DNA of 64,000 nucleotides from Pyramidobacter sp. C12-8 (GCF_002007215.1 NZ_MUHX01000007.1:1-64000); one strand, 5' to 3'; shown: positions 1,670 through 49,824, counted from the first letter of the stretch. Notes: generated by a model not told the origin, from the sequence alone. A program made the numbers and translations.

Positions 1670-2755
1670 ATGGTCAGAACGTGTTTTGTGAGAAAGGCAC
1701 TCGCCGCAGCAGCTGTCGTTATGATTTTGGGCGCCGGCACGGCTTCCGCCGCTCCGGAGTATAAGTGGCGTTTTGGGCAGACCTCGGTCCGTGCCTCGCA
1801 GGGCAAGTCCTACAAACTTTTCTGTGAGTTAATCAAGAAATACAGCAACGGCCGTATCGAAGTCGAGTTTTTCCCCGACAATCAGCTCGGGACTCTCAAT
1901 GAGATCTTCCACGCCGTGCAGGACGGCGAAATCGAGATGTGCGGTTTCGCTCCTTACGTCAATCTCGTTCCCGGCGGCATGTTCAACTGGATGCCGTGGA
2001 CCGTCGAATCGTGGGAAGAGTGCAAGATGGCTTTCTCGCGCCCCGACGGATGTCTCTACGTGCCTCTCGAGGAGTCCATGAAGGAAGTCGGCGTTCACAT
2101 TCTGTTCACCGTTTCGCAGGGCTCCTACGGCATCGGCAACAGCGTGCGCCCGATCAAAACGCCGGCTGATTTCAAGAATCTGAAAATGCGTGTTTCTTCG
2201 TCGCTCGGCTGCGTCCGCGGCCTGCAGAACATGGCCGAGGGAACGGGTATGACCGTCGAAACCGTGCCGTGGGGCGATCTTTACAACGCCCTGGCGAAGG
2301 GCGTGGTCGACGGCTGCTGGGATATGTGGCCTTCGCTCGTGGAGGAGCGTCACTGCGAGGTCATGAAGTATTACACGTCTCTGGATTGGATGTGGGACGC
2401 CAATCAAGTCGTCATCAACGCCGAACTTTGGGCGAAGCTGCCCGACGATCTCAAAGCCGCGATCCGGAAGGCGGCCGACGAAGCCGAAGCCGATCAGTAC
2501 GCCATCCAAATCGCCGAAGAGGACAATTTCAAAGAGTTCCTCAAGAAGCAGCCGAACTTCGAAATTTACTATCCGACCGAGGCGGAGCGCGCCGAGTTCC
2601 GCAACCGCGCCCGCAATCTCGACAACTGGAACGATCTTTGCAAGCCGTGGCTCGACAAGCACTTCCCCGGTCAGGATATGACCGTGAAGATTCTCGACCA
2701 GCTCCGAATCAACCGCGAAAAAGTATTAGCCGACAAGGCCGCAGCTGCAAAGTAA
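1670..2755 (+). CDS. dctP: TRAP transporter solute-binding protein, DctP family
   Basis: Periplasmic receptor that captures an organic acid or acylated amino acid and hands it to the DctQM membrane pair. The 361-residue protein starts with a signal peptide (residues 1-27, cleavage likely after ASA). It then has the DctP fold, with the conserved ligand-carboxylate arginine in the segment NLKMRVSSS (R174). The ATG follows a strong AAGGAGG. It is the first gene of a + strand cluster with dctQ, dctM and an N-acyl-D-amino-acid deacylase. This context suggests an acylated amino acid as ligand, but the sequence alone does not show which. A terminator-like hairpin follows it, consistent with the binding protein being made in excess over the membrane parts. 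Confidence 0.93.
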   Translation: MVRTCFVRKALAAAAVVMILGAGTASAAPEYKWRFGQTSVRASQGKSYKLFCELIKKYSNGRIEVEFFPDNQLGTLNEIFHAVQDGEIEMCGFAPYVNLVPGGMFNWMPWTVESWEECKMAFSRPDGCLYVPLEESMKEVGVHILFTVSQGSYGIGNSVRPIKTPADFKNLKMRVSSSLGCVRGLQNMAEGTGMTVETVPWGDLYNALAKGVVDGCWDMWPSLVEERHCEVMKYYTSLDWMWDANQVVINAELWAKLPDDLKAAIRKAADEAEADQYAIQIAEEDNFKEFLKKQPNFEIYYPTEAERAEFRNRARNLDNWNDLCKPWLDKHFPGQDMTVKILDQLRINREKVLADKAAAAK

Positions 2756-2770
2756 CGATCAGTCTCACAA

Positions 2771-2800
2771 GGGGGCGGCCCGAAAGCCGTCCCCTTTTTT
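2771..2800 (+). terminator. Hairpin plus T-run between dctP and dctQ
   Basis: A 9-bp stem (GGGGGCGGC against GCCGTCCCC, one G-U pair) with a short loop is followed by six T residues. Because dctQ and dctM continue on the same strand, it most likely acts as a partial terminator that lowers expression of the membrane subunits relative to DctP. Confidence 0.8.
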
Positions 2801-2836
2801 GAAGCAAGATCTCTGTGACAGAAAAGGCGGTGCATT

Positions 2837-3352
2837 ATGAAAAAACTCTTTTCTTTCCTGCAGAAAACCGAATTCTTTCTCGGCTCTCTCGGGCTCCTGC
2901 TGGCCATAATCCTCACGTTCTGTCAGGTGGTAAACCGCTACTGGCTCCATTTCGAAATCATGTGGATCAGCGACGCGGCGTTGTACATCTTTATTTTCAC
3001 TATTTATGTGGCGATTTCCTACGGAGCCGCCGTGAAGACGCACATCGCCGTCGACATCCTTTCCGACGTCTTGTGCAAGGACAGCCGGGCGAAACGCGCT
3101 CTGTTCGACATGGCGAAGAGCGCCGTCACCGTCGCGATGATCCTGGCCATGTGGAGCCCCACGCTGCGCGTCGTCAAACGCGCCTGGAAGCATCCCGAGT
3201 TCGCCACGCTGGTGCGCTGGTTCAACACGAGCTGGCTCGTGTATGCCATGGGCGTCATGATCGTGTTGAGCGTTCTTCATTACGGCTGGCATGTCTGCGA
3301 GGATATTTTCGAGTTGCAAAAACTCCGTTGGGAAAAAGAGGTGAAGGAGTAA
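2837..3352 (+). CDS. dctQ: TRAP transporter small permease, DctQ family
   Basis: Small inner-membrane subunit of the TRAP transporter. The 171-residue protein has about four hydrophobic segments, including residues 12-30 and 50-70, as expected for DctQ. The motif WISDAALYIFIFTIYVA followed by a short loop and an aspartate-containing helix is typical of the family. Its TAA shares one base with the ATG of dctM (3352), implying translational coupling. It sits 81 bases after dctP, beyond an internal terminator hairpin. Confidence 0.9.
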   Translation: MKKLFSFLQKTEFFLGSLGLLLAIILTFCQVVNRYWLHFEIMWISDAALYIFIFTIYVAISYGAAVKTHIAVDILSDVLCKDSRAKRALFDMAKSAVTVAMILAMWSPTLRVVKRAWKHPEFATLVRWFNTSWLVYAMGVMIVLSVLHYGWHVCEDIFELQKLRWEKEVKE

Positions 3353-4686
3353 TGTTCGATCTCGGCACTTCCACAACTCTCGTTACGTTCCTCGTCGGTA
3401 TCGTCGCGGGGCTGCCCATCGGCTGGGTTTTCATCGGCGCGACCGCCCTCGGCGTCATTCTCGGCGGCGGCACGATGACCTTCATCGCCAACTCCTTTTT
3501 CCATTCGCTCGACTCCTCGACGGTCATGGCCATTGCCTTTTTCGTTTTTTCCGGCGCTCTCATCGGCGAGGCCGGGCTGGCGGACCGCATCGTCAATTTT
3601 TCTTACGCGCTGGTCGGGCGCCTCAAGGGCGGCCTGACGGCCGTCGGCATCGTCGCCACGCTGTTCATGGGGGCGCTTACGGGGTCTTCGGTTCCCTGTA
3701 TCGCCGCGCTGATTCCCCTGCTTGTTCCCAAACTGGAAAAATTCGGTTACAGCCGCGTCTACACGACAGCGCTGCTCTGCTCGTCCAGCTATCTGGGATA
3801 TCTGATTCCGCCCAGCGTGCCGGCCATGATCTATTGTCTGCTGGCCGGACAATCGGTCGGCGCGCTGTTCCTTTCCACCGTCTTTCCCGGTCTGCTGCTG
3901 GCTCTCGGCTACTGCATCCTCAATTACCTTTACGTCGACAAATACACATCCTCCAGCGTTGAAGTCCCGGAGCTGCCCAAGACTTTTATCGCTTCCGTCA
4001 AACAGGTGTGCCACACCGGCTGGGTAGCCCTGCCGGCGCTGGGCTGTCCGGCGCTGATTTTGATCGGCATTTACGGCGGCATCTTTACGCCCAACGAAGC
4101 CGGCGGCATCGCGGCTATTTACTGTCTGCTGGTCGGCTGGTTCGCTTACCGCGAACTGACCTGGAAGCGCCTGAAAAAAGCCTTGTCCAGCACGGTCGGA
4201 ACGTTCGGCATGACCACGCTGCTGTTGGCTGGCGGCACGGTTCTGACCCGTTACCTGACCCGGCAGGGCGTGGCTCAGCAGGTGGCGTCGGCCATGCTTT
4301 CGATGTTTTCGAGCAAGTACATGATTTTGCTCATGCTCAACGTATTCTTGCTCTTCCTCGGCATGTTCCTCGACGGTATTCCCATTCTCATTCTGGTCGT
4401 GCCGCTGGTGCTGCCCCTGATGACGGAACTGGGAGTCAACCTGGTCCACCTCGGCGCGATCATGGTGGTCAACGTCGGCATCGGTGTGATGACGCCGCCG
4501 TTCGCCATGTCGATCTTCGTCGGGTCGCGTCTGTCGGAAATCTCCGCGGCCGACCTGACGAAAGCGATGCTGCCTTTCCTGTTCTACGTTTCCATCCCCG
4601 TCCTGCTGCTGACAACGTATTTCCCTTTCCTGTCGTGCTGGCTGCCCGAGCTGCTTCTGGGCGCGAACGTCGTCGGCGCGTGGTAA
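3352..4686 (+). CDS. dctM: TRAP transporter large permease, DctM family
   Basis: The large membrane subunit that moves solute using the Na+ or H+ gradient. I chose ATG 3352, overlapping the dctQ stop by one base. An open frame extends further upstream but would run antiparallel to the natural unit. This gives 444 residues, normal for DctM. The protein is hydrophobic throughout, with many transmembrane segments and the family's glycine/proline-rich re-entrant segments (LTGSSVPCIAALIPLL, YLGYLIPPSVPAMIY, VGIGVMTPPFAMSIF). It forms the transporter with dctP and dctQ. A D-aminoacylase gene follows after 68 bases. Confidence 0.94.
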   Translation: MFDLGTSTTLVTFLVGIVAGLPIGWVFIGATALGVILGGGTMTFIANSFFHSLDSSTVMAIAFFVFSGALIGEAGLADRIVNFSYALVGRLKGGLTAVGIVATLFMGALTGSSVPCIAALIPLLVPKLEKFGYSRVYTTALLCSSSYLGYLIPPSVPAMIYCLLAGQSVGALFLSTVFPGLLLALGYCILNYLYVDKYTSSSVEVPELPKTFIASVKQVCHTGWVALPALGCPALILIGIYGGIFTPNEAGGIAAIYCLLVGWFAYRELTWKRLKKALSSTVGTFGMTTLLLAGGTVLTRYLTRQGVAQQVASAMLSMFSSKYMILLMLNVFLLFLGMFLDGIPILILVVPLVLPLMTELGVNLVHLGAIMVVNVGIGVMTPPFAMSIFVGSRLSEISAADLTKAMLPFLFYVSIPVLLLTTYFPFLSCWLPELLLGANVVGAW

Positions 4687-4754
4687 ACGGACGGCGGAAG
4701 CTTTAACTCACGTTCGAGAGAGTCTTGATTTAAATTTTTTGAGGAGGGAAGGCA

Positions 4755-6344
4755 ATGACGTACGATCTGTTGCTCAAAAACGGCATGTGCTATGCCGGCG
4801 ACGGCAAGGAAGGCTTTCGCGCCGACGTGGCAGTCAAAGACGGCAAAATTGCCGCCGTCGGCAGCGTTCAGGCCGAGGCACGCCGCACGATCGACGCCGC
4901 GGGGCTGGCGGTGGCTCCCGGTTTTATCGACACGCACAGTCACTCCGACCTGGTGGCTCTGGTCGAACCCGAAATCGCCAATAAAACGACTCAGGGCGTC
5001 ACGACGGACATCATCGGTCAGGACGGGATGTCGCTGGCTCCCGTCGTGCCGGAATTTCTGTCTTCATGGGAAAAGACGATGGCCGGGCTGGAGGGACAGT
5101 ACTCGGTCGACTGGAAATGGCGCTCCGCCGAAGACTATCTGAAACGCCTCGACGCGATGCCGCTGGGGCCCAATCTCGCCTACCTGGCGCCGACGGGCAA
5201 TATCCGCATGTGCGTAATGGGTCTTGAGAACCGCCCCGCCACGGCCAGCGAGATCGACATGATGAAGGATCTGCTGGAAAAATGCATTGGCGCGGGCGCG
5301 GTCGGCCTCTCCACAGGGCTCATCTACCCTCCCAGCAACTATATGACGGAAGATGAGATCGCCGCGGTCACCAGCGTCCTGACCAAATACAATTTGCCGT
5401 TCGTCATTCACCAGCGCAGCGAAGCCGACGACATCCTCAACTCGATGGACGAAGTGTTCCGCATCAGCCGCAAGTCGGGCTGCCCCATTCATTTCTCGCA
5501 TTTCAAAGTCTGCGGCATGAAGAATGCCCATCTCTTCGACGCCGTCATGAAAAAGCTCGACGAAGGGGAAAAAGATATCCAGCTTTCGTTTGACCAGTAC
5601 CCTTACGCCGCCGGCAGCACCACGTTCAGCGTCATTCTGCCGCCGTGGGCCCACGACGGAGGCGCGGAAAAATGTCTTGCCCGTCTCGCCGACAAGGACG
5701 CCCGCGCGCGCATGAAGGCCGACATCGCCAAGGGGATCCCCGGCTGGGACAATTTCGTCGATTTCGCCGGCATGGAAAACATTTTCGTGACGTTCGTGAA
5801 GACGCCGAAGAACGCCGACCTGGTCGGCAAGAATATGATCGAGATCGGCCAGATCCGCGGCAAAGATCCCTTCGACGCCTCGTTCGATTTGCTGCTCGAA
5901 GAGGAACTGGCGGTCGGCCTGGTGGACTTTTACGGACTGGAAGAGCACGTCGAGGCCATCATCGCGCATCGTCTCCAAAATCCTTGCACCGACGGCATTC
6001 TCGGCGCCCGTCCGCATCCGCGCGTATACGGTTCGTTCTCGCGCATTCTCAGTCGTTACGTGCGCGAGCGCAAACTGATGACGCTGCCCGAAGCGATCCG
6101 CAAGATGACCTCCCGTCCCGCCTCCATCTTCAAGCTGAAAGAGCGCGGTTTACTCAGGGAAGGCTATGCCGCCGACATCGCCATTTTCGATCCCGAGACG
6201 GTGGCCGACAAAGCGACTTATACCGATCCCATGCAGTACTCCGCCGGAATTCCATACGTCGTCGTCAACGGCCGGCTGGTTGTCGACGGCAATCAAGTCG
6301 TCAAGGGGAAAGCGGGCAAAGTGCTGCGATTCTATAAGGAGTGA
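4755..6344 (+). CDS. N-acyl-D-amino-acid deacylase (D-aminoacylase), amidohydrolase superfamily
   Basis: Cytoplasmic metal-dependent hydrolase that splits N-acyl-D-amino acids into a carboxylate and a D-amino acid; some members prefer other N-acyl or N-carbamoyl substrates. The 529-residue length matches the family. The N-terminal beta-sandwich residues lead into the metal motif at residues 56-63 (GFIDTHSH; H61 and H63). The C-terminal segment GYAADIAIFDPETV is the usual end of amidohydrolase proteins. A strong GAGGAGGG precedes the ATG. Its position straight after a TRAP transporter and before an Na+/amino acid symporter suggests the transporter brings in its substrate. The exact substrate is inferred, not shown. 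Confidence 0.88.
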   Translation: MTYDLLLKNGMCYAGDGKEGFRADVAVKDGKIAAVGSVQAEARRTIDAAGLAVAPGFIDTHSHSDLVALVEPEIANKTTQGVTTDIIGQDGMSLAPVVPEFLSSWEKTMAGLEGQYSVDWKWRSAEDYLKRLDAMPLGPNLAYLAPTGNIRMCVMGLENRPATASEIDMMKDLLEKCIGAGAVGLSTGLIYPPSNYMTEDEIAAVTSVLTKYNLPFVIHQRSEADDILNSMDEVFRISRKSGCPIHFSHFKVCGMKNAHLFDAVMKKLDEGEKDIQLSFDQYPYAAGSTTFSVILPPWAHDGGAEKCLARLADKDARARMKADIAKGIPGWDNFVDFAGMENIFVTFVKTPKNADLVGKNMIEIGQIRGKDPFDASFDLLLEEELAVGLVDFYGLEEHVEAIIAHRLQNPCTDGILGARPHPRVYGSFSRILSRYVRERKLMTLPEAIRKMTSRPASIFKLKERGLLREGYAADIAIFDPETVADKATYTDPMQYSAGIPYVVVNGRLVVDGNQVVKGKAGKVLRFYKE

Positions 6345-6440
6345 TTTTTTTCAGGCGATAGCGACGGAGCGTTCCATTCGCGCGTAACAAGTCCGGCGTC
6401 TTTCGTATTTCATCACAAGCCAAGAAGGAGGCAAGCGATC

Positions 6441-7793
6441 ATGTCGAAATTTTTAAACTGGCTGGCCGGCGAGCTTTGGGGCTGGCCCATGATGATTCTC
6501 ATCTTCCTGTGCGGTCTGATTTTCGGTTTGGGGACGGGCTTCTTTCAAATCCGCAAGCTTCCTTACGTCCTCAAAGAAACGCTCGGCAAGTGCTTCAGAA
6601 AGGACGCGCTCGAAGGCGAAGGCACGATCACGCCGCTGCAGGCCGTTTCTTCGGCTCTCGCCGGATGTATCGGCAACGGCAATATCGCCGGAGTGGCGAC
6701 CGCGATCGCGACCGGCGGTCCGGGAGCCGTTTTCTGGATGTGGATCATGGGCCTTTTCGGCATGATGACGAAATTCGTCGAGGTCGTTCTGGCCGTTCAT
6801 TTCCGCGAGCAAACGGAGAGCGGCGCCTTTTACGGCGGCCCGATGTACTACATCGAAAAGGGCATGGGTAAAAGATGGAAGCCGCTCGCCATGTTCTACG
6901 GCGTGATGATGATCGTCGGGGCCCTCGGCACCGCCGTATGGGTCCAGCCTCACACGATGGCTTCGGCCCTCAAGAGCACTTTCGGTATCCCGCCCCTGGC
7001 CACCGTCGTCTGCGCCGTCATTCTCACTGCGCTCGTATGCTTCGGCGGTTTCAAACGCATCGGGCGTTTCGCCGAAAGTATCATGCCTTACTTTGTCGTC
7101 GTCTATACCGTATTTTCGCTCGGGGTTATTTTTACGAACATTGCGCGACTGCCCGAAGTGGTCGGCATGATCTTCAAGTACGCTTTCAACCCCCATGCGG
7201 CCGTCGGCGGTTTTGCCGGAGGCACGATGATCCTCGCCGTCCGGTACGGCGCGGCGCGAGGCGTTTTCTCCAACGAAGCCGGACTGGGAACGGCTTCGAT
7301 GGTTCACGCCACGTCGATCACCAGGCACCCCTGCCAGCAGGGTCTGTACGGCATCGTCGAAGTTTTCGTCGATACGATCGTGATGTGTTCGATGACCGCG
7401 TTCGTTATCCTGCTTTCGGCTCCCGACGTGTGGAGCGGCGGTTTGAACGGCATCGCCCTTACCATCTCCGCATTCGATACGCTGTACGGAAAATTCGGCG
7501 CGTGGATCGTCTCCATATCCGTCATGCTCGCAGCTCTCACGACGATGATCGGCTACTACTTCGAATACAAGACGTCCGTCGTTTATGTCTTCGGCGAAAA
7601 AAATATGGGTATCTTCAACGTTTTCTGGCTGATCCCGCCGTTCGTCGCCGTGACGCAGGACGTCGATCTGGTCTGGACGATCGTCGACATTTCAACCGGC
7701 ATCGAAGGCATCCCCAACATGATCGCCATGCTTGCGCTCGCGCCTATATTTTTCAAGGTTTACAAGCAATGGACTAAGGACAACAACTTATAG
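6441..7793 (+). CDS. Sodium:alanine/glycine symporter, AGCS family (copy 2)
   Basis: Inner-membrane Na+/amino acid symporter, 450 residues, with the AGCS signature at residues 76-95 (CIGNGNIAGVATAIATGGPG) and the conserved FSNEAGLGTASMVHATS segment. It is a paralogue of the symporter at 70-1464, but its base composition matches the surrounding genes. A clear AAGGAGG precedes the ATG. It lies between the D-aminoacylase and a YgeY-type hydrolase, so it may take up, or export, the amino acid handled by this cluster. Confidence 0.93.
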   Translation: MSKFLNWLAGELWGWPMMILIFLCGLIFGLGTGFFQIRKLPYVLKETLGKCFRKDALEGEGTITPLQAVSSALAGCIGNGNIAGVATAIATGGPGAVFWMWIMGLFGMMTKFVEVVLAVHFREQTESGAFYGGPMYYIEKGMGKRWKPLAMFYGVMMIVGALGTAVWVQPHTMASALKSTFGIPPLATVVCAVILTALVCFGGFKRIGRFAESIMPYFVVVYTVFSLGVIFTNIARLPEVVGMIFKYAFNPHAAVGGFAGGTMILAVRYGAARGVFSNEAGLGTASMVHATSITRHPCQQGLYGIVEVFVDTIVMCSMTAFVILLSAPDVWSGGLNGIALTISAFDTLYGKFGAWIVSISVMLAALTTMIGYYFEYKTSVVYVFGEKNMGIFNVFWLIPPFVAVTQDVDLVWTIVDISTGIEGIPNMIAMLALAPIFFKVYKQWTKDNNL

Positions 7794-7858
7794 CCAGACT
7801 CAATAATTACGCAGAAAAACCGAAACCATTCATTAAACGTTCAAGGAGGCTTTTCCCG

Positions 7859-9040
7859 ATGAGTGAAAAATGGCAGGACGAATTGGTCGAACTGGTTCGC
7901 GGCATGATTCGCTGTCCCAGTCTTTCCGGGCACGAGGACAAAATCGCCGATTTTGTCGAAAACGCGATGAAGCGCTTCGGCTTCGACTCCACCGAACGCG
8001 ACCGTTACGGCAACGTTTCGGGGCGCATGGTATTCGGCAAAGGCGGCAAAAAGCTGCTCTTCGAAGGCCACATGGATCACGTCGACATCGCCGACCGCTC
8101 CAAATGGACTCACGATCCTTTCGCGGCCGAGATCGTCGGCGGGCGCATGTACGGCCGCGGCACGAGCGACATGAAGGGCAATCTGGGCGCCGCAATCATG
8201 GCGGCCAGACTGCTCAAAGAAAATCATGCCGAACTTAACGGAGAACTGATCGTCTGCGGCGGCGTGCACGAAGAATGCTTCGAGGGCGTCGCTTCCGAGG
8301 AACTGGGGATCCGCTGGAAGCCCGACTGCGTGATCATCGGCGAGGCTTCGTCGCTGAATCTGAAACGCGGCCAGCGCGGCCGCGCCGAAGTGGTTCTGGA
8401 GACTCTGGGGAAATCCGCCCACTCGTCCAATCCCGAGGTCGGCCTTAACGCCGTAAAGACGATGGCGCCGCTTCTGACCGCCATCGAGCGCGATTTCAAG
8501 CCTAAAGAGCAGCCTGTGCTCGGCAAAGGCATTCTCGAACTGACCGACATCATTTCCTCCCCTTATCCCGGCGCCAGCGTCGTGCCCGAAAAGTGCCGCG
8601 TCACGTACGACCGGCGTCTGCTCGTGGGAGAAACCGACGCCGAGGTGCTGAAGCAGATTCAGGACATCGTCGACGCGCAGAAGAAGCTCGATCCCCGTCT
8701 GGACGCCAGAGTTTATCTGGCTACCGGCACGGAAAAGTGCTACACCGGCGAGACGATCTCCGCGACGCGCTACGCGCCCGGTTGGCTGTTCCCCGAAGAC
8801 AACTGGTTCGTCGCGGCGGCGCTGGAAGGGCTGAGGAACGCCGGATTGAATCCGGAATTCTCCCATTACGCTTTCTGCACCAACGGCAGCTATTACGCCG
8901 GCAAGGCGGGGATCCCCACCGTCGGCTTCGGCGGCTCGCTCGAATCGCTGGCCCACGTGGTCGACGAATACATCGAGATCGACCAGCTCTGCAAGGCCTG
9001 CGAAGGCTATCAGGGCATCGTCCGCGCCGTTCTTCGCTAG
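7859..9040 (+). CDS. ygeY: M20-family metallohydrolase of the YgeY type
   Basis: Zinc-dependent amidohydrolase/peptidase, 393 residues. The M20 metal ligands are visible: GHMD (H71, D73), the bridging aspartate in GTSDMKGN (D104) and the catalytic/metal pair HEE (E138, E139). Family knowledge: YgeY proteins are annotated as selenium-metabolism-linked hydrolases because they co-occur with selenium-dependent amino-acid catabolic enzymes. The substrate is not firmly established. No in-frame UGA is present here. A strong AAGGAGG precedes the ATG, and the threonine-synthase-like gene begins only 9 bases after the stop, so the two are co-transcribed. Confidence 0.85.
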   Translation: MSEKWQDELVELVRGMIRCPSLSGHEDKIADFVENAMKRFGFDSTERDRYGNVSGRMVFGKGGKKLLFEGHMDHVDIADRSKWTHDPFAAEIVGGRMYGRGTSDMKGNLGAAIMAARLLKENHAELNGELIVCGGVHEECFEGVASEELGIRWKPDCVIIGEASSLNLKRGQRGRAEVVLETLGKSAHSSNPEVGLNAVKTMAPLLTAIERDFKPKEQPVLGKGILELTDIISSPYPGASVVPEKCRVTYDRRLLVGETDAEVLKQIQDIVDAQKKLDPRLDARVYLATGTEKCYTGETISATRYAPGWLFPEDNWFVAAALEGLRNAGLNPEFSHYAFCTNGSYYAGKAGIPTVGFGGSLESLAHVVDEYIEIDQLCKACEGYQGIVRAVLR

Positions 9041-9049
9041 AGGCACGTC

Positions 9050-10279
9050 ATGGCTTTCTACACGCTCAAATGCGCCCTCTGCGGGCGCGAATTCCCCGCC
9101 GAAAGCACGTTGAAAACGTGTCCCGACTGCGGGATCCACGGCACTATGCACGTGCTGTACGACTACGACGAAGTGAAAAAACAGATCGACCGCACCTCTC
9201 TGGCGGCGGATCCGCGTTTCAGTCTTTGGCGCTACGAAGCCCTGCTTCCGATGCGGAAAAATTCGCGCCGCCCCACGCTTCAGGTCGGCTGGACGCCGCT
9301 CTACGATATGCCCCAGATCGCGTCCGAATACGACGTCGGGCAGCTTCTGATCAAGGACGACGGACGCAATCCCACGGCTTCGCTCAAAGACCGCGCCAGC
9401 GCCGTCGCCGTAACGCTCGCCGCGGAGCTAAACCGCGACGTTCTCGCCTGCGCGTCGACGGGCAACGCCGCCAGTTCGCTCGCGGGTTTCGCCGCCAACA
9501 TGGGATTGAAAAGCGTGATCTTCGTTCCGGAAACGGCGCCAGTCGCCAAAGTGACGCAGCTGCTCGTGTTCGGCGCACGGGTGTTCCTCGTCAAGGGAGA
9601 TTACGCCGCAGCGGTGCGGCTGGCGATCGAGGCCATCGAACATTACGGCTGGTACGACCGCAACTGCGCGATCAACCCGTTCCTCGTCGAAGGGAAAAAG
9701 ACCTGCGCGATGGAGATCGCGGAACAGTGCGACTGGGACGTCCCCGACAAAGTTTTCGTCTCCGTCGGCGACGGCTGCATCGTCAGTTCGACGTACAAGG
9801 GTTTTTACGATCTGTACAAGATCGGCGTCATCGACCATATTCCTCAGATCATCGGCGTTCAGGCGGAGGGCGCCTGCCCGATCCACAGGGCGATTCAGGA
9901 GGGCGCCGATAAAGTCGTATTCGGCCCCTCGCACACGATTGCCGACAGCATCGACGTGGGCGCGCCGCACAACTGGGCGAAAGCGCTTCACGCGATCCGC
10001 GCTTCTCATGGGAATACGACCGCCGTCAGCGACGCCGAGATCCTTTCCGCCGTCGCCGAACTGCCGCGAAAAAGCGGCGTGTTCGCCGAGCCCGCGGGAG
10101 CGACGGCCTACGCCGGTTTCGTCAAATTCGCTCGCGAAAGACGTCTCAAGGCGTCGGACCGCGTCGCCGTGATCATTTCAGGCAACGGCCTCAAAGACGT
10201 CGCCTCGGCGCAGAAAGCGGTTCCGCCGGCTGCAAAAGTCGCCCCAAACATGGAGGAACTGATAAAAATTCTCGGCTGA
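9050..10279 (+). CDS. Threonine-synthase-like PLP enzyme with N-terminal zinc ribbon
   Basis: Fold-type-II pyridoxal-phosphate enzyme of 409 residues. Residues 8-27 contain two CxxC pairs (CALC, CPDC) that would form a small zinc ribbon, as in many archaeal-type threonine synthases. The PLP-binding lysine is in the motif NPTASLKDR (K113), and the glycine-rich phosphate loop is around STGNAASS. A biosynthetic threonine synthase is one possibility. The position between YgeY and a second PLP enzyme in a catabolic cluster makes an elimination or ammonia-lyase role on a hydroxy- or diamino-acid equally plausible. The gap to the preceding gene is 9 bases. Confidence 0.8.
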   Translation: MAFYTLKCALCGREFPAESTLKTCPDCGIHGTMHVLYDYDEVKKQIDRTSLAADPRFSLWRYEALLPMRKNSRRPTLQVGWTPLYDMPQIASEYDVGQLLIKDDGRNPTASLKDRASAVAVTLAAELNRDVLACASTGNAASSLAGFAANMGLKSVIFVPETAPVAKVTQLLVFGARVFLVKGDYAAAVRLAIEAIEHYGWYDRNCAINPFLVEGKKTCAMEIAEQCDWDVPDKVFVSVGDGCIVSSTYKGFYDLYKIGVIDHIPQIIGVQAEGACPIHRAIQEGADKVVFGPSHTIADSIDVGAPHNWAKALHAIRASHGNTTAVSDAEILSAVAELPRKSGVFAEPAGATAYAGFVKFARERRLKASDRVAVIISGNGLKDVASAQKAVPPAAKVAPNMEELIKILG

Positions 10280-10366
10280 CGGCGTTTTTGCCCAAACGAC
10301 TCATCCGCGGCATTTTTATACGCTTCGGCGTTCCCCCCAATTTTATTTATTAAGGAGAGACTCAAA

Positions 10367-11842
10367 ATGTACGACCAAATCAACCTGCTCGTCGACAAGG
10401 AAAGACGAAAGAACGGCATCGAGCGCGCCAAATCGCGGCATATCCTCATCCCCACTTTCCGCCAGATGAAAAACCCCGACAAGGAGACGCCGGCGAAAGT
10501 CAAGGAAGGACTGAAAGAAACCGGCTTGTGGGACGTCAATCCGCTGAACCTGTTCCGCATCACCTGGAAGAACGAGCCCAAAACTTCCGGCGGGCTCTAC
10601 GGCGGCGTCAACTTCATCGAGTTTCCCAGCTCGCTGACGGGAGTGAAGGCGCGCATTTTCGCTCTCGTCGGCAAATGGTTCCCCACCGGGGCCCACAAAG
10701 TCGGCGCAAGTTTCGGCTGCCTTGTACCCCGTCTTGTCACGGGACAGTTCGATCCAACCCGCGATTGGGCCGTCTGGCCTTCGACGGGCAACTATTGCCG
10801 CGGCGGTGCGTACAACTCCCAGCTGCTCGGCTGCCGCTCCATCGCCATCCTCCCCGAAGGCATGAGCAAGGAACGCTTCGACTGGCTCCGCACCGTAGCC
10901 GGCGAGATCATCGCCACGCCCGGCACGGAGAGCAACGTCAAAGAAATTTACGACAAAGTCCATGAACTGCGCTCGACCCGCGACGACGTGGTGATCTTCA
11001 ACCAGTTCGAGGAGTTCGGCAATTATCTGTGGCATTACGAAGTTACGGGCGGCGCGCTCGAAGAAGTGGCGAAAGGCTGCATGCGCCCGGGCGACCGCCT
11101 CGCCGCGGCCGTTTACACGACCGGCTCCGCCGGGACGATCGCCAGCGGCGACTATCTGAAACAGATCTGGCCCGGCATGAAGATCGTCGCCAGCGAAGCG
11201 CTGCAATGCCCCACCTTGCTGCGCAACGGCTGGGGGGCACACCGCATCGAAGGCATCGGCGACAAACACGTGCCCTGGGTACACAACGTGCGCAACACGG
11301 ACATGGTCACCGCCATCGACGATAACGACTGCATGGCACTGATCCGCCTGTTCAACGAACCTGCCGGTCGCGAATTCCTCCGCCGCGCGGGAGTGCCCGC
11401 GGCCCTTACGGAACAGCTGGATCTGCTGGGCATTTCCGGCGTCGCCAATTTGCTGAGCGCGATCAAGGCCGCCAAGTACTACGAAATGGACGAGCACGAC
11501 GTCGTTTTCACCATTCTTACCGACTCGATGGAAATGTACGGCTCGCGCCTGCAGGAACTCGAAGCGGAATTCGGGGCGTACGGCGCCGTTAACGCCGAAG
11601 TCGACTTCGCGAGCCGCCTGCACGGGCAAAAAAGCGATAATGCGCTGGAGCTCACCTATCCCGAACGCCTGCGCGTCCATAACCTGAAGTATTACACATG
11701 GATCGAGCAGCAGGGCAAAACCAGCGAAGAACTGCATAGCCAGTGGTATGACGCCGACAATTACTGGGGCGAGATCCGTACCATGGCTCCGAAGATCGAC
11801 AAACTCATCGAAGAATTCAACGTCGCGACGGGACTGAATTAA
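10367..11842 (+). CDS. TrpB-like fold-type-II PLP enzyme, substrate unknown
   Basis: A 491-residue pyridoxal-phosphate-dependent enzyme. The segment PTGAHKVGASFG (K111 as Schiff-base lysine) closely resembles the TrpB motif TGAHK. A phosphate-binding glycine-rich loop (TTGSAGTIASGD) follows the central domain. It is longer than cysteine synthase or threonine synthase, and no TrpA partner lies nearby, so a tryptophan synthase role is unlikely. AAGGAGAG precedes the ATG. As the last gene of the TRAP/deacylase/YgeY cluster, it probably breaks down or remodels an amino acid freed by the hydrolases. I do not recognise its specific reaction. Confidence 0.75.
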   Translation: MYDQINLLVDKERRKNGIERAKSRHILIPTFRQMKNPDKETPAKVKEGLKETGLWDVNPLNLFRITWKNEPKTSGGLYGGVNFIEFPSSLTGVKARIFALVGKWFPTGAHKVGASFGCLVPRLVTGQFDPTRDWAVWPSTGNYCRGGAYNSQLLGCRSIAILPEGMSKERFDWLRTVAGEIIATPGTESNVKEIYDKVHELRSTRDDVVIFNQFEEFGNYLWHYEVTGGALEEVAKGCMRPGDRLAAAVYTTGSAGTIASGDYLKQIWPGMKIVASEALQCPTLLRNGWGAHRIEGIGDKHVPWVHNVRNTDMVTAIDDNDCMALIRLFNEPAGREFLRRAGVPAALTEQLDLLGISGVANLLSAIKAAKYYEMDEHDVVFTILTDSMEMYGSRLQELEAEFGAYGAVNAEVDFASRLHGQKSDNALELTYPERLRVHNLKYYTWIEQQGKTSEELHSQWYDADNYWGEIRTMAPKIDKLIEEFNVATGLN

Positions 11843-11854
11843 TCGCTCCGCCCG

Positions 11855-11913
11855 AAACGGCGGGCCGCGGATGGAAAAGGCCGAAAGCCTCCGCTCCGCG
11901 TCCCGCCGTTTTT
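11855..11913 (+). terminator. Intrinsic terminator ending the amino-acid catabolic cluster
   Basis: A 17-bp stem (11855-11871 with 11895-11911, one mismatch) ends in a T-rich tract. It lies 12 bases after the PLP-enzyme stop and marks the end of the long + strand cluster. Confidence 0.85.
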
Positions 11914-12123: not shown

Positions 12124-12789
12124 ATGCCTATTCCTCAGAGAAAACAAAAATTCATACGCGAGAGCGCCAAAGAGAAAATCTACAGGACCCTCCAAAGCTG
12201 GATCGTCAACGGCACCATGAAGCCCGGGGAACGCATCAGCGATCAGGAAATCGCCGAGTATTTCGACGTCAGCCGCACGCCGGTGCGCGAAGCGCTGCAG
12301 CGTTTGTCGGAGCAGGGACTGGTGTATGTCGAGCCGTCGAAGGGGACGCACGTCTCCCCGCTCGACGAAAACAACACGTTCACGATCTACGAAGCGCTGG
12401 CGCTGCTTTCAGGCTGCGCGGCGCGGCTCGCCTGCCAGAAGCAGAAAAACGGCGACATACAAAAACTGCGTGAATTGAACGCCGTTTTTCAGAAAGCAAT
12501 CGAAGCGGGAGAAAATCAGAAACTTGCCACCTTCGACAATCAATTCCACGGATATCTTTTGGAGATGGCTGACAACGCTTACATCTCTGATATAATATAC
12601 ACGTTGACGCTTCACGCCAACCGCTGCGAAAATCTGTATTTTGAGAGAGGCCCCGACAAGATGGCGTCCGTACGCGAGCACAACGCCATCATCGACGCCA
12701 TCGAAGCGCACGAGCCGGAGGCAAGCGGCCGTTACGCCGAAGAAAACTGGCTCGGCTTTTACCACCGGCGTCTCGCCAAGATACTGTAA
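12124..12789 (+). CDS. GntR-family transcriptional regulator with FCD domain
   Basis: DNA-binding regulator of 221 residues. The winged helix-turn-helix spans roughly residues 12-75 (ISDQEIAEYFDVSRTPVREALQ region), followed by an all-helical FCD ligand-binding domain. I chose ATG 12124 because it gives the normal FadR/FCD length. The open frame runs 47 codons further upstream, but that stretch is AT-rich and does not look coding. The 5' region 11914-12123 is AT-rich with a TATACT hexamer near 12008, a possible -10 element. Regulators of this class usually control the adjacent catabolic genes, so the TRAP/deacylase cluster just upstream is the likely target; this is inference. Confidence 0.88.
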   Translation: MPIPQRKQKFIRESAKEKIYRTLQSWIVNGTMKPGERISDQEIAEYFDVSRTPVREALQRLSEQGLVYVEPSKGTHVSPLDENNTFTIYEALALLSGCAARLACQKQKNGDIQKLRELNAVFQKAIEAGENQKLATFDNQFHGYLLEMADNAYISDIIYTLTLHANRCENLYFERGPDKMASVREHNAIIDAIEAHEPEASGRYAEENWLGFYHRRLAKIL

Positions 12790-12895: not shown

Positions 12896-14572
12896 ATGTC
12901 CTACACGTCCGATATCGAGATCGCGCAGTCAACGCCTATGCTTCAGATCGAGGAAGTCGCCCGCGGCGCGGGGATCGACGGGAAGTATCTGGAGTTCTAT
13001 GGCCGCGCCAAAGCCAAGATCGATTACGTCAATCTGCTGAAAGACTGCCCGCGCCCCGACGGCAAACTGGTGCTGGTCACGGCCATCACGCCGACGCCCG
13101 CCGGCGAAGGCAAGACGACGACCACGGTCGGCCTGGCCGACGGCCTGCGCAAGATCGGCAAGAACGTGATGGTGGCGCTGCGCGAGCCTTCGCTCGGGCC
13201 CGTCTTCGGCGTCAAGGGCGGCGCGGCCGGCGGCGGCTACGCCCAGGTCGTGCCCATGGAAGACATCAATCTGCACTTCACCGGCGACTTCCACGCCATC
13301 GGCGCGGCCAACAACCTTCTGGCCGCCATGCTCGACAACCACATCCAGCAGGGCAATTCTCTCGACATCGACACGCGCCGCGTTATCTGGCGGCGCTGCG
13401 TCGACATGAACGACCGCCAGCTGCGCAGCATCGTCTGCGGGCTCGGCGGCAAAGCCAACGGCGTGCCGCGCGAGGACGGCTTCGACATCACCGTCGCGTC
13501 CGAGGTTATGGCCGTTTTCTGTCTCGCGTCCGGCATCGACGACCTCAAATCCCGCCTGGCGCGCATCATCGTCGCCTACAGCCGCAGCGGCAAACCCGTC
13601 ACGGCCGGCGACCTGCACGCTCAGGGCGCCATGGCGGCGCTGCTGGTGGAAGCGCTCAAGCCCAATCTGGTGCAGACGCTGGAGCACACGCCCGCCTTCA
13701 TCCACGGCGGCCCGTTCGCCAACATCGCGCACGGCTGCAATTCCGTCATGGCCACGCGCCTGGCGCTGAAGATGGGCGACTACGCGATCACGGAGGCCGG
13801 ATTCGGCGCCGACCTGGGCGCGGAAAAGTTCCTCGACATCAAGTGCCGCTTCGCCGGGCTCAAGCCCTCGGCCGTCGTTATCGTCGCCACGGTGCGCGCG
13901 CTCAAGCATCACGGCGGCGTCGCCAAGGCCGAGCTGAACGACGAGAATCTGGCCGCGCTCGAAAAGGGGCTGCCCAACCTGCTGCAGCACGTGGAGAACA
14001 TCACCAAGGTCTACAAGCTGCCCGCCGTGGTGGCGATCAATCGTTTCCCCACCGACAGCGAGGCCGAGCTGAAACTCATCGCCGACAAATGCCGCGAGCT
14101 GGGCGTCAACGTGGCCCTGTCGGAAGTCTGGGGCAAGGGCGGCGACGGCGGCGTGGAGCTGGCCAAGGAAGTGGTGCGCCTCTGCGAGCTGCCCAACGAT
14201 TTTGCCTACGCCTACGACCTCGACATGACCATCGAGCAGAAGCTCGACGCCATCGTCAAAAAGATCTACCGCGGCGACGGCGTCGTCCTCACGGCCAACG
14301 CCCGCAAGCAGATGAAACAGTTGGAAGAACTGGGCTTCGGCAATCTGCCCATCTGCATGGCCAAGACGCAGTACAGCTTCTCCGACGATCCCACGCTGCT
14401 GGGCGCGCCCCGCGGTTTCGAAGTCACCGTGCGCAACCTCAAAGTCAGCGCCGGCGCGGGCTTCATCGTGGCGCTGACGGGCGAGATCATGACCATGCCC
14501 GGGCTGCCCAAGGTCCCCGCCGCCGAGCGCATCGACGTCGATTCCGACGGCAAAATCTCGGGGCTGTTCTAA
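12896..14572 (+). CDS. fhs: Formate--tetrahydrofolate ligase
   Basis: Cytoplasmic enzyme joining formate and tetrahydrofolate at the cost of ATP, or making ATP from 10-formyl-THF in fermenters. The 558-residue length matches the family. The P-loop is at residues 66-77 ([12 protein letters not shown]), followed by the conserved [19 protein letters not shown] segment (split here by motif order) and the folate-site stretch around [14 protein letters not shown]. With fchA and folD next to it, it completes the conversion between methylene-THF and formate. In an amino-acid fermenter the likely direction is towards formate and ATP. An intrinsic terminator follows directly. Confidence 0.97.
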
Positions 14573-14579
14573 AAAACTC

Positions 14580-14612
14580 GGGCGGACTGCGTGAAACAGT
14601 CCGCCCTTTTTT
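14580..14612 (+). terminator. Intrinsic terminator after fhs
   Basis: A perfect 10-bp stem (GGGCGGACTG/CAGTCCGCCC) with a 7-base loop is followed by six T residues, beginning 8 bases after the fhs stop. Confidence 0.93.
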
Positions 14613-14637
14613 CAAACGCGCCACGCCGGCGCGAAAA

Positions 14638-14653
14638 TGTTCCACGTGGAAAT
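14638..14653. other. Degenerate parS (ParB-binding) site
   Basis: TGTTCCACGTGGAAAT matches the palindromic parS 16-mer TGTTCCACGTGGAACA at 14 of 16 positions; both mismatches are at the right end. It is intergenic, 25 bases downstream of the fhs terminator T-run. Three perfect copies occur elsewhere in the window (32844, 56471, 60732), which makes chance unlikely. Confidence 0.7.
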
Positions 14654-14744
14654 TCACCCCGTCACACCAGTAAATACCGGACATCAGATTATATGTTTCT
14701 TTTCAAATTCGAATGACCGTACGAAAAAAAGGAGAACCCGTCCC

Positions 14745-15377
14745 ATGAAGATGACCGAAAAATCCTGCGCCGATTTCGTCGCCGTCCTCGCCACCAAAGC
14801 TCCCGTCCCCGGAGGCGGCGGCGCGTCCGCGCTCTGCGGCGCGATCGGAACCGCGCTGGGCAACATGGTGGGCAGCCTCACCGTCGGCAAGAAGAAGTAC
14901 GCCGCCGTCGAGGATGAGATCAAAAGCCTGCAGGCCAAATGCGACGCGCTGCAGGCCGACCTGCTGGCGCTGGTGGAACAGGACGCCGAGGTCTTCGCGC
15001 CGCTGGCCGCCGCTTACGGCCTGCCCAAAGACACGGGAGAACAGCGGGCGGAGAAAGACCGCGTCATGGAAGCGGCGCTGGGCGCCGCCTGCGGCGTGCC
15101 GCTGCGGATCATGGAGAAATGCTGCGAAGCCATCGGCCTGATGGCCGTCTTCGCCGAAAGGGGTTCGCGCCTGGCCGTCAGCGACGCCGGCGTGGGCGCG
15201 GCCCTGTGCCGCGCGGCGCTCGAAGGCGCGGCGCTGAACGTGTTCATCAACACCAAAGCCATGAAAGACCGCGCCAACGCTGCCGCCATCGACGCCCGCG
15301 CCGAAAAGATGCTGGCCGGCAGCCGCGGCCGCGCCGACAAAATCTACGAAACCGTCATGAATTCCCTGCGCGCCTGA
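14745..15377 (+). CDS. fchA: Methenyltetrahydrofolate cyclohydrolase / formimino-THF cyclodeaminase family
   Basis: A 210-residue, mostly helical folate enzyme of the FTCD_C family. It either removes ammonia from 5-formimino-THF (histidine or purine breakdown) or hydrolyses methenyl-THF. Residues 17-30 (PVPGGGGASALCGA) are the hallmark glycine-rich folate-binding segment. I chose ATG 14745, which has AAAGGAGAA upstream; the open frame starts further upstream only because it runs into the parS-like sequence. It lies between fhs and folD, so all three act on C1-THF. Whether it acts as cyclohydrolase or deaminase cannot be told from the sequence. Confidence 0.88.
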   Translation: MKMTEKSCADFVAVLATKAPVPGGGGASALCGAIGTALGNMVGSLTVGKKKYAAVEDEIKSLQAKCDALQADLLALVEQDAEVFAPLAAAYGLPKDTGEQRAEKDRVMEAALGAACGVPLRIMEKCCEAIGLMAVFAERGSRLAVSDAGVGAALCRAALEGAALNVFINTKAMKDRANAAAIDARAEKMLAGSRGRADKIYETVMNSLRA

Positions 15378-15628
15378 CGCGCCTGTCTCAAAAACAACGG
15401 CAACCACGGAGGAACGAAGAAGTGGAGGGCAGACAGGGTGAAGCGCAAAAAAGCAGAGGACGTTTTTTGAACGCCCCTTCAGCGAAGCAGGATATTTGCG
15501 AAATCCTTCAAATCCTTTCGCAGAGCGTTCTGGAAATCCCGTTGTCCTGTTTTCCGTTTCGCCGCTCCGCCGCTTCTCCGCGGCTGCTTTCGTTCTCCGA
15601 TTTCAATCAGGAAAGGCATGTGATTTTT

Positions 15629-16477
15629 ATGGCTCAGATCCTGGACGGCAAGGCCGTGGCCGCCGCCCTCACCGCGCAGCTCAAAAACGACGTGCAGAAG
15701 CTCAAAGACCGCGGCGTTTCCCCCTGCCTCGCCATCGTGCGCATGGGCGAACGCGGCGACGACCTCGCCTACGAGCGAGGAGCGACCAAGCGCGCCGCGA
15801 CCGTGGGACTGGAAGTGAAACAGTTCGCGCTGCCCGCCGAAGCTTCGCAGGACGAACTGCTGGAAGTCATCGCCAAAATCAACGCCGACGCTTCGATCCA
15901 CGGCTGCCTGATCTTCATGCCGCTGCCGAAGCACATCGACGAAGCAGTCGTGCGCGCGGCGCTGGCCCCCGAAAAGGACGTGGACGGCATCACCGCCGCG
16001 TCGCAGGCTGGCGTTTATTCCGGCAAGGCCGTGGGCTTTCCTCCCTGCACGCCATCCGCCTGCATGGAGATCCTCAGGCATTACCGGATCGAACTGAAAG
16101 GCGCGAACGCCGTCGTCTTCGGGCGCAGCCTCGTCGTCGGCCGCCCGCTGGCGATGATGCTGCTGGCGCAGAACGCCACCGTGACCATCTGCCACACCAA
16201 GACCCGCGACGCCGCCGCCGTCGCCCGCGGCGCCGACGTGCTGCTGGCCGCCGTGGGGCACGCGGGAGCCGTCGGCGAGGCGTTCGTCACTCCCGATCAG
16301 GTGCTGATCGACGTGGGCATCAACGTGAACGCCGAGGGCAAGCTCTGCGGCGACGTCGCCCCCGAAGCGGCGCAGAAGGGCCGCGCCTCCACGCCCGTGC
16401 CCGGCGGCGTCGGCTCCGTCACCACCACCGTGCTCGCCAAGCACGTGATCGAAGCGGCGCAGCGGACGCTCGAATAA
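15629..16477 (+). CDS. folD: Bifunctional methylene-THF dehydrogenase / methenyl-THF cyclohydrolase
   Basis: Cytoplasmic enzyme oxidising 5,10-methylene-THF with NAD(P)+ and hydrolysing the product to 10-formyl-THF. The 282-residue length is typical. The active-site tyrosine and lysine are at Y48 and K54 (YERGATK), and the segment FGRSLVVGRPLA binds the nucleotide. TPVPGGVGSVTT near the C-terminus is a signature of the family. ATG 15629 is used; a GTG at 15620 in the same frame sits closer to the purine-rich GGAAAGG and is an alternative start. The 251-base gap before it contains no gene I can support. Confidence 0.96.
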   Translation: MAQILDGKAVAAALTAQLKNDVQKLKDRGVSPCLAIVRMGERGDDLAYERGATKRAATVGLEVKQFALPAEASQDELLEVIAKINADASIHGCLIFMPLPKHIDEAVVRAALAPEKDVDGITAASQAGVYSGKAVGFPPCTPSACMEILRHYRIELKGANAVVFGRSLVVGRPLAMMLLAQNATVTICHTKTRDAAAVARGADVLLAAVGHAGAVGEAFVTPDQVLIDVGINVNAEGKLCGDVAPEAAQKGRASTPVPGGVGSVTTTVLAKHVIEAAQRTLE

Positions 16478-49659: not shown

Positions 49660-49679
49660 TTCAAACGGGAACTCCATCA

Positions 49680-49769
49680 CGCAGGGGAGTCCGCACAGGC
49701 GGGCTGAGAGGAGGCCGCTCGGCCTCGACCCTTTGAACCTGATACGGGATCATGCCGGCGAAGGAAGCG
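49680..49769 (+). ncRNA. TPP riboswitch (THI element)
   Basis: The aptamer shows the conserved THI-box blocks: GGGGAGTCC with the pyrimidine-sensor core GGCTGAGAGG, then ACCCTTTGAACCTGAT and the closing GCCGGCGAAGG. It binds thiamine pyrophosphate and lowers expression when TPP is plentiful. The hairpin terminator at 49777-49824 follows directly, so control is by premature transcription termination ahead of thiE and thiD. Confidence 0.96.
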
Positions 49770-49776
49770 CTTTCTG

Positions 49777-49824
49777 AAAAATGACGGGGGAGAGCCGGCG
49801 CGCCGGTTCTCCCCCGTCATTTTT
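49777..49824 (+). terminator. Expression-platform terminator of the TPP riboswitch
   Basis: A 24-bp stem with one G-U pair (49777-49800 with 49801-49824) ending in five T residues, seven bases after the aptamer. It is not followed by any gene end, so it is the regulated terminator for thiED. Confidence 0.92.

Follow-up and report, generated by a model that had tools for sequence, protein, structure and literature searches.

A conserved TRAP-transporter cassette of Pyramidobacter sp. C12-8 that may form a salvage module related to the lower half of the reductive uric-acid pathway

The reductive uric-acid pathway and the Pyramidobacter cassette

The breakdown of uric acid by gut anaerobes was described as a pathway only in 2025. 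In this reductive route, XdhD converts uric acid to yanthine, reduction and opening by YgfK or UacX and SsnA follow, and HyuA opens the ring to give 2,3-diureidopropionate (PMC12507026). The lower half leads from 2,3-diureidopropionate to albizziin (UacY or YgeW), then to 2,3-diaminopropionate (YgeY) and finally to pyruvate (YgeX). In C. difficile, the D-aminoacylase homologue UacY takes the place of YgeW, and both the pathway and this exchange have been shown biochemically (PMC12507026). According to a commentary, the order of ureido removal and its stereochemistry were left open (PMC12990295). The neighbourhood survey of the original study scored YgeX only as Pfam PF00291, and Synergistota are not mentioned in its main text (PMC12507026).

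Here we analyse a 64,000-nucleotide stretch of the Pyramidobacter sp. C12-8 genome (NZ_MUHX01000007.1:1-64000; hereafter the window). ORFs and family models place eight genes on one strand, with inter-gene gaps of 10-97 bp (Table 1). The initial annotation had described a ten-kilobase same-strand cassette of these families followed by a terminator and a GntR/FCD regulator, and this layout was confirmed at about the same positions. A terminator hairpin with a U tract ends the operon and separates it from the regulator gene, beyond which lie one-carbon folate genes that are possibly linked to the cassette. The window starts where its contig (C166) starts, and the view upstream of the cassette in its own genome ends there. 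A second AGCS symporter gene (AGCS1, 70-1464) lies upstream of the cassette. At the corresponding place in a same-species genome, G113 (L188:15993-19893), we found a transposase-like gene (IS110-like) together with an M20 peptidase and a transporter, which indicates a rearrangement at the strain level; because gene order differs there, AGCS1 was left out of the cassette. Elsewhere in the window, a TPP riboswitch was found at 49673-49783 (Rfam RF00059, 59 bits).

Table 1. Features of the cassette and its downstream neighbours, in window coordinates
Feature	Position	Strand	Length	Basis
DctP, TRAP substrate-binding protein	1670-2755	+	361 aa	PF03480, 173 bits; NF037995 over cut-off
DctQ, TRAP small permease subunit	2837-3352	+	171 aa	PF04290 over cut-off
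DctM, TRAP large permease subunit	~3394-4686	+	about 430 aa	TIGR00786 over cut-off; PF06808, 306 bits
UacY-type D-aminoacylase family amidohydrolase	4755-6344	+	529 aa	Best PDB matches 1m7j, 3gip
AGCS, Na+/alanine-type symporter	6441-7793	+	450 aa	TIGR00835 over cut-off
M20 metallohydrolase, distant YgeY paralogue	7859-9040	+	393 aa	PRK13004, 461 bits (cut-off 321)
ThrS, threonine-synthase-like PLP enzyme	9050-10279	+	409 aa	TIGR00260 over cut-off; PRK08197, 297 bits (cut-off 303)
PLPb, CBS/OASS-like fold-type-II PLP enzyme	10367-11842	+	491 aa	Family models, structure search, co-occurrence
Intrinsic terminator	11854-11912 (approx.)	+		Fold energy -39.9 kcal/mol, z -3.9, then UUUUUAUUU
GntR/FCD regulator	12124-12789	+		ATG at 12124; PF00392 and PF07729
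One-carbon folate genes Fhs (12896-14572), FchA (within 14637-15377) and FolD (ending at 16477)	12896-16477	+		ORFs; named by sequence resemblance

The initial annotation named no described pathway for these families, but one with a matching set exists: the final UacY-YgeY-PLP-lyase stage of reductive uric-acid degradation (PMC12507026), which has the same functional order of a D-aminoacylase-type hydrolase, an M20 hydrolase and a fold-type-II PLP enzyme. Unlike that pathway, the cassette has a dedicated TRAP importer, its M20 enzyme is a YgeY paralogue, and PLPb together with a threonine-synthase-like enzyme occupies the place of YgeX. With moderate confidence, we read the cassette as a stand-alone salvage module that corresponds to the pathway's lower half, equipped with its own importer and with PLPb/ThrS in the role of YgeX.

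Enzymes and importer

Among PDB entries, the UacY-type hydrolase matches D-aminoacylase (1m7j) and N-acyl-D-Glu deacylase (3gip) best, at 254 bits, and the OngB structure 9kb1 (227 bits) is also one of its top matches. It shares its fold family and its metal- and D-amino-acid carboxylate-binding residues with C. difficile UacY and D-aminoacylase (1M7J, 3GIQ). The residues were read off motif strings, the printed positions being one behind 1M7J numbering. All are kept except the metal ligand Cys96, which is Asp in every window-type UacY (defined by 50% identity or more); this comparison is with D-aminoacylase, C. difficile UacY itself lying outside it. The hydrolase may act on 2,3-diureidopropionate, although relatives of D-aminoacylase are also active on N-acetyl amino acids and sugar acids, which counts against so narrow a reading. 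The match to OngB, which we take to have a role in the use of oxidised chitin, raises a different possibility, namely that the cassette imports an N-acetylated amino sugar acid and degrades it by a deacetylase and subsequent PLP-dependent deamination. Since D-aminoacylase and N-acyl-D-Glu deacylase score higher, and since the neighbourhood in all relatives inspected is of the ureide/purine kind and not a sugar one, we regard this as very improbable.

The M20 enzyme carries the metal-ligand motifs and had been called a YgeY hydrolase, a name that holds at the level of the broad YgeY model. Its score against TIGR03526 is 268 bits, below the cut-off of 321.5, and its 32% identity to E. coli YgeY and its separate clade in the tree rule out a plain YgeY assignment. 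Similar M20 paralogues are found, too, in clusters where YgeY is already present.

The ThrS-like enzyme shares the PLP lysine, the STGN loop and the overall family models with threonine synthase (ThrC, 1UIM, 2ZSJ). It does not keep S155, R160 and N188 (T. thermophilus numbering), which we take to be the homoserine-phosphate-binding positions; at R160, and likewise at N188, 95 of the 96 homologues from these loci have a different residue. A threonine synthase role was therefore rejected, and the earlier label 'threonine-synthase-like' is apt for the family models and not for the phosphate-binding residues. Most of the genomes checked also encode a distinct ThrC with a higher score; none such was found in the window's own genome.

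In PLPb, TGAHK-type and STGN motifs are invariant in the alignment. Its predicted structure (pLDDT 82.8, pTM 0.87) is closest by Foldseek to beta-cyanoalanine synthase, O-acetylserine sulfhydrylase (OASS) and cystathionine beta-synthase (CBS), with TM-scores by target of 0.77-0.83 for the best single-domain matches. The catalytic core fold is shared with these enzymes at about 23-26% identity, and PLPb has extra N- and C-terminal regions. In sequence and fold it is thus nearer to the cysteine synthase, cystathionine beta-synthase and beta-cyanoalanine synthase group than to TrpB, to which it had first been likened. Enzymes of this group catalyse beta-elimination and beta-replacement, the kind of reaction that diaminopropionate requires to lose its beta-amino group, and PLPb/ThrS may act on that compound. 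An OrtB-type thiolase was also considered for PLPb and dropped, as no OrtB model matched.

The transport genes comprise a complete DctP, DctQ and DctM set, and alignment shows that DctP, 83% identical to its Fretibacterium counterpart, keeps the conserved substrate-carboxylate arginine at residue 174. Carboxylates are the usual substrates of TRAP systems that use a DctP-type binding protein; a carboxylate is present in diureidopropionate, albizziin and acyl-diaminopropionates and absent from uric acid and hydantoins. This rule points to a ureido- or acyl-diaminopropionate-type carboxylate as the probable ligand. Solved relatives did not narrow it further: the best PDB sequence match of DctP, 4ngu, is a remote TRAP protein, and the literature on its ligand was unhelpful. 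The 'unidentified acylated amino acid' of the initial annotation can be narrowed to a likely substrate class, the ureido- or acyl-2,3-diaminopropionates. Its outline of import, deacylation and PLP-dependent elimination of an N-substituted, probably D-configured amino acid fits the retained hydrolase residues and DctP arginine. The AGCS symporter is missing at the cassette in Fretibacterium and most relatives, and we count it as accessory because it is found in that place only within the window's genus.

Gene neighbourhoods and exchange patterns

A scan with the 491-aa PLPb as query returned more than 550 relatives, the best in Fretibacterium fastidiosum (81% identity) and the next mostly in Chloroflexota (63-70%). 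The F. fastidiosum locus (L001) reads GntR-DctPQM-UacY-M20-ThrS-PLPb at 64-83% identity, has no AGCS gene, and carries directly upstream of DctP a GntR/FCD protein 65% identical to the window regulator. The UacY-M20-ThrS-PLPb part recurs in the remaining Synergistia genomes that have a window-type UacY. In genome G101 (L193) a sodium/solute symporter stands in the TRAP place and PLPb-ThrS-M20-UacY is kept, and a Desulfuromonadaceae MAG (L022/G190) shows ThrS-PLPb-M20-UacY-DctQ-DctM as far as its short contig goes. Conservation of this neighbourhood in relatives had been set as a test of the cassette at the outset; the set is conserved far beyond chance, and the cassette is real.

In Halanaerobiales, KSB1, Spirochaetes and Chloroflexota, PLPb is accompanied by varying subsets of YgeW, YgeY, hydantoinase, carbamate kinase and xanthine dehydrogenase homologues. 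These are the genes of the reductive uric-acid route. The recurring gene-order core is LysR-M20-ThrS-SHMT-PLPb, and its partners are alternatively TRAP, YgeY and YgeW (with a BMP-type ABC transporter), YgeY, YgeW and UacX/XDH, or TRAP, UacY and M20, as in the window. Relatives of the cassette also sit inside complete uricolytic clusters, which ties it to the pathway. One such cluster (L165) reads M20-ThrS-PLPb-YgeY-YgeW-UacX-XDH-SsnA-XdhD-permease in a genome with no YgeX, and its YgeX counterpart (L168) lies in a genome without PLPb. At L139 and L166, PLPb lies inside a uricolytic cluster with ThrS not nearby. This arrangement suggests that the essential substitution is by PLPb, with ThrS in an accessory role.

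Two further features of these neighbourhoods were observed. In another Synergistia family (L122, L132, L134), ThrS-PLPb has as neighbours an arylformamidase-like protein and a trans-4-hydroxyproline dehydratase, the latter exceeding the NF043068 cut-off in L122. The LysR gene that lies upstream of M20-ThrS-PLPb (L112:13269-14168, and in the same place elsewhere in Synergistia) has as its best match a selenium-metabolism-associated LysR model at 163.9 bits (cut-off 250), a sub-cut-off match that fits a link to the selenium/purine gene set.

We surveyed 183 Synergistia genomes and found PLPb in 74, YgeX in 46, YgeW in 73 and a window-type UacY in 13; SsnA was above the cut-off in 46 and lower-scoring but clearly separate in 20 more. 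The SsnA-positive genomes divided into 18 with PLPb only, 21 with YgeX only, three with both and four with neither (p = 3.6e-6; p = 0.008 when collapsed to genera, or 0.0005 with the lower SsnA tier added). PLPb is present, and YgeW missing, in every one of the 13 genomes that carry a window-type UacY, while 45 of the 61 other PLPb-positive genomes do have YgeW (p = 6.5e-7; at genus level p = 2e-4, or 0.03 with mixed genera counted against). Because genomes are related, the genome-level p-values overstate the evidence and the genus-level values are safer. In each of two genera (g10 and g11), some species are of the UacY type and others of the YgeW type, so the exchange took place on more than one occasion; it mirrors the published YgeW-UacY exchange. 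Outside Synergistota, 28 of the 30 PLPb-positive genomes carry SsnA (25 above the cut-off and three at 429-453 bits against a cut-off of 455.5). YgeX of any score is found in five of these 30 and above the cut-off in one. One of the two SsnA-less genomes is the Desulfuromonadaceae carrier of the window-like cassette (G190). The near-exclusive split among SsnA-positive genomes, together with the rarity of YgeX in PLPb-positive genomes of other phyla, argues that PLPb, usually with a ThrS-like partner, probably replaces YgeX.

An apparent lower half lacking its upper part, and the possible fate of its carbon

The window's own genome (G000) is 99.3% complete. No TIGR03314 (SsnA) match at E <= 1e-40 was found in it or its genus, YgeW was absent from it in the Synergistia survey, and nothing in it exceeded the TIGR02033 (HyuA) cut-off; the cassette itself contains neither XdhD nor YgfK/UacX. 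The step assigned to YgeW or UacY is represented by the UacY-type hydrolase. YgeX is missing from the cassette and present at an unrelated locus in this genome and genus, so that PLPb fills no gap there. With SsnA and YgeW lacking and no HyuA above the cut-off, the three pathway genes that the genome search covered, the cassette looks like a lower half without its upper half, plus an importer. A whole uric-acid pathway in this organism was rejected on the absence of SsnA and YgeW. It could still be argued that an upper half is encoded elsewhere in unrecognised form, with the cassette as its lower half and the TRAP system serving another solute: two weaker dihydropyrimidinase/allantoinase-like genes (297 and 277 bits) lie away from the cassette on contig C144, and three UacY-type genomes besides the window's (G025, G026, G099) carry SsnA-like genes. 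Given the empty SsnA search in so complete a genome and its genus, and the lack of SsnA in the Desulfuromonadaceae carrier as well, we consider this quite unlikely.

The region around these genes (G000:C144:99000-118900, L190) is a second ureide locus, with a UacY-like protein (35%), the two dihydropyrimidinase/allantoinase-like enzymes, a TRAP system, a small hydantoin/aspartate-racemase-like protein and an N-carbamoyl amidohydrolase (TIGR01879). It is likely a hydantoin/ureide uptake operon.

In 30 of 74 genomes, less than 200 bp separate PLPb from a serine hydroxymethyltransferase (SHMT) paralogue, which often lies between the ThrS-like gene and PLPb; in nine more the two are within 20 kb of each other. 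The presence of this paralogue is tied to that of PLPb (p = 3e-16). Homologues of Fhs, FolD and FchA stand beside the cassette in unrelated genera (L120, L126, L144, L191). For these two reasons, serine leading to glycine and one-carbon units is kept as an alternative product to pyruvate. In the same-species genome G113, 14.6 kb separate the SHMT paralogue from PLPb, and the gene occurs twice, with identical scores (G113:C1:420792-422033 and 551636-552877); no copy was found in G000, whose assembly is fragmented and may have lost the gene as a repeat.

The SHMT paralogue and nearby one-carbon genes would also suit a general scavenging of N-acyl-D-amino acids from cell walls or diet in which ureides play no part: the TRAP system would import an N-acetyl-D-amino acid, the deacylase would free it, and the PLP enzymes, as D-serine/D-threonine-type dehydratases, would yield pyruvate, with a link to SHMT. 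The D-aminoacylase family acts on such substrates, the binding residues are kept, and the genome lacks SsnA and YgeW. This explanation leaves unaccounted for both the company that PLPb keeps with SsnA, YgeW and YgeY across phyla and the mutual exclusion of UacY and YgeW, and we judge it unlikely.

We return to the stand-alone lower half as the preferred reading. In this scheme, the TRAP system would import a carboxylate of the 2,3-diureidopropionate, albizziin or N-acyl-diaminopropionate type, produced by other microbes or taken from the diet; for genomes without SsnA, this substrate is suggested by the enzymes. The UacY-type hydrolase would remove the group from the D-configured alpha-amino group, and the M20 enzyme that from the beta-amino group, giving 2,3-diaminopropionate. 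PLPb, usually with its ThrS-like partner, would then act in place of the ammonia-lyase YgeX, either eliminating ammonia to form pyruvate or adding water to form serine. In the many relatives with SHMT and Fhs/FolD/FchA alongside, the carbon could finally yield glycine and a one-carbon unit, with a gain of ATP.

We tentatively propose a wider picture, in which an undescribed terminal module of PLPb and a ThrS-like enzyme, often with a dedicated SHMT, replaces YgeX across Synergistota, Chloroflexota and other phyla and turns diaminopropionate into serine, glycine and one-carbon units. The TRAP-equipped version could let non-uricolytic anaerobes cross-feed on ureido-acid intermediates from uric-acid degraders. 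If PLPb/ThrS is an alternative last step, surveys based on PF00291 (PMC12507026) cannot separate two different enzymes, and the fate of the carbon, pyruvate on the one hand and serine, glycine and one-carbon units on the other, would differ between lineages. A stand-alone lower half equipped with an importer would suggest that intermediates of the pathway are traded between microbes.
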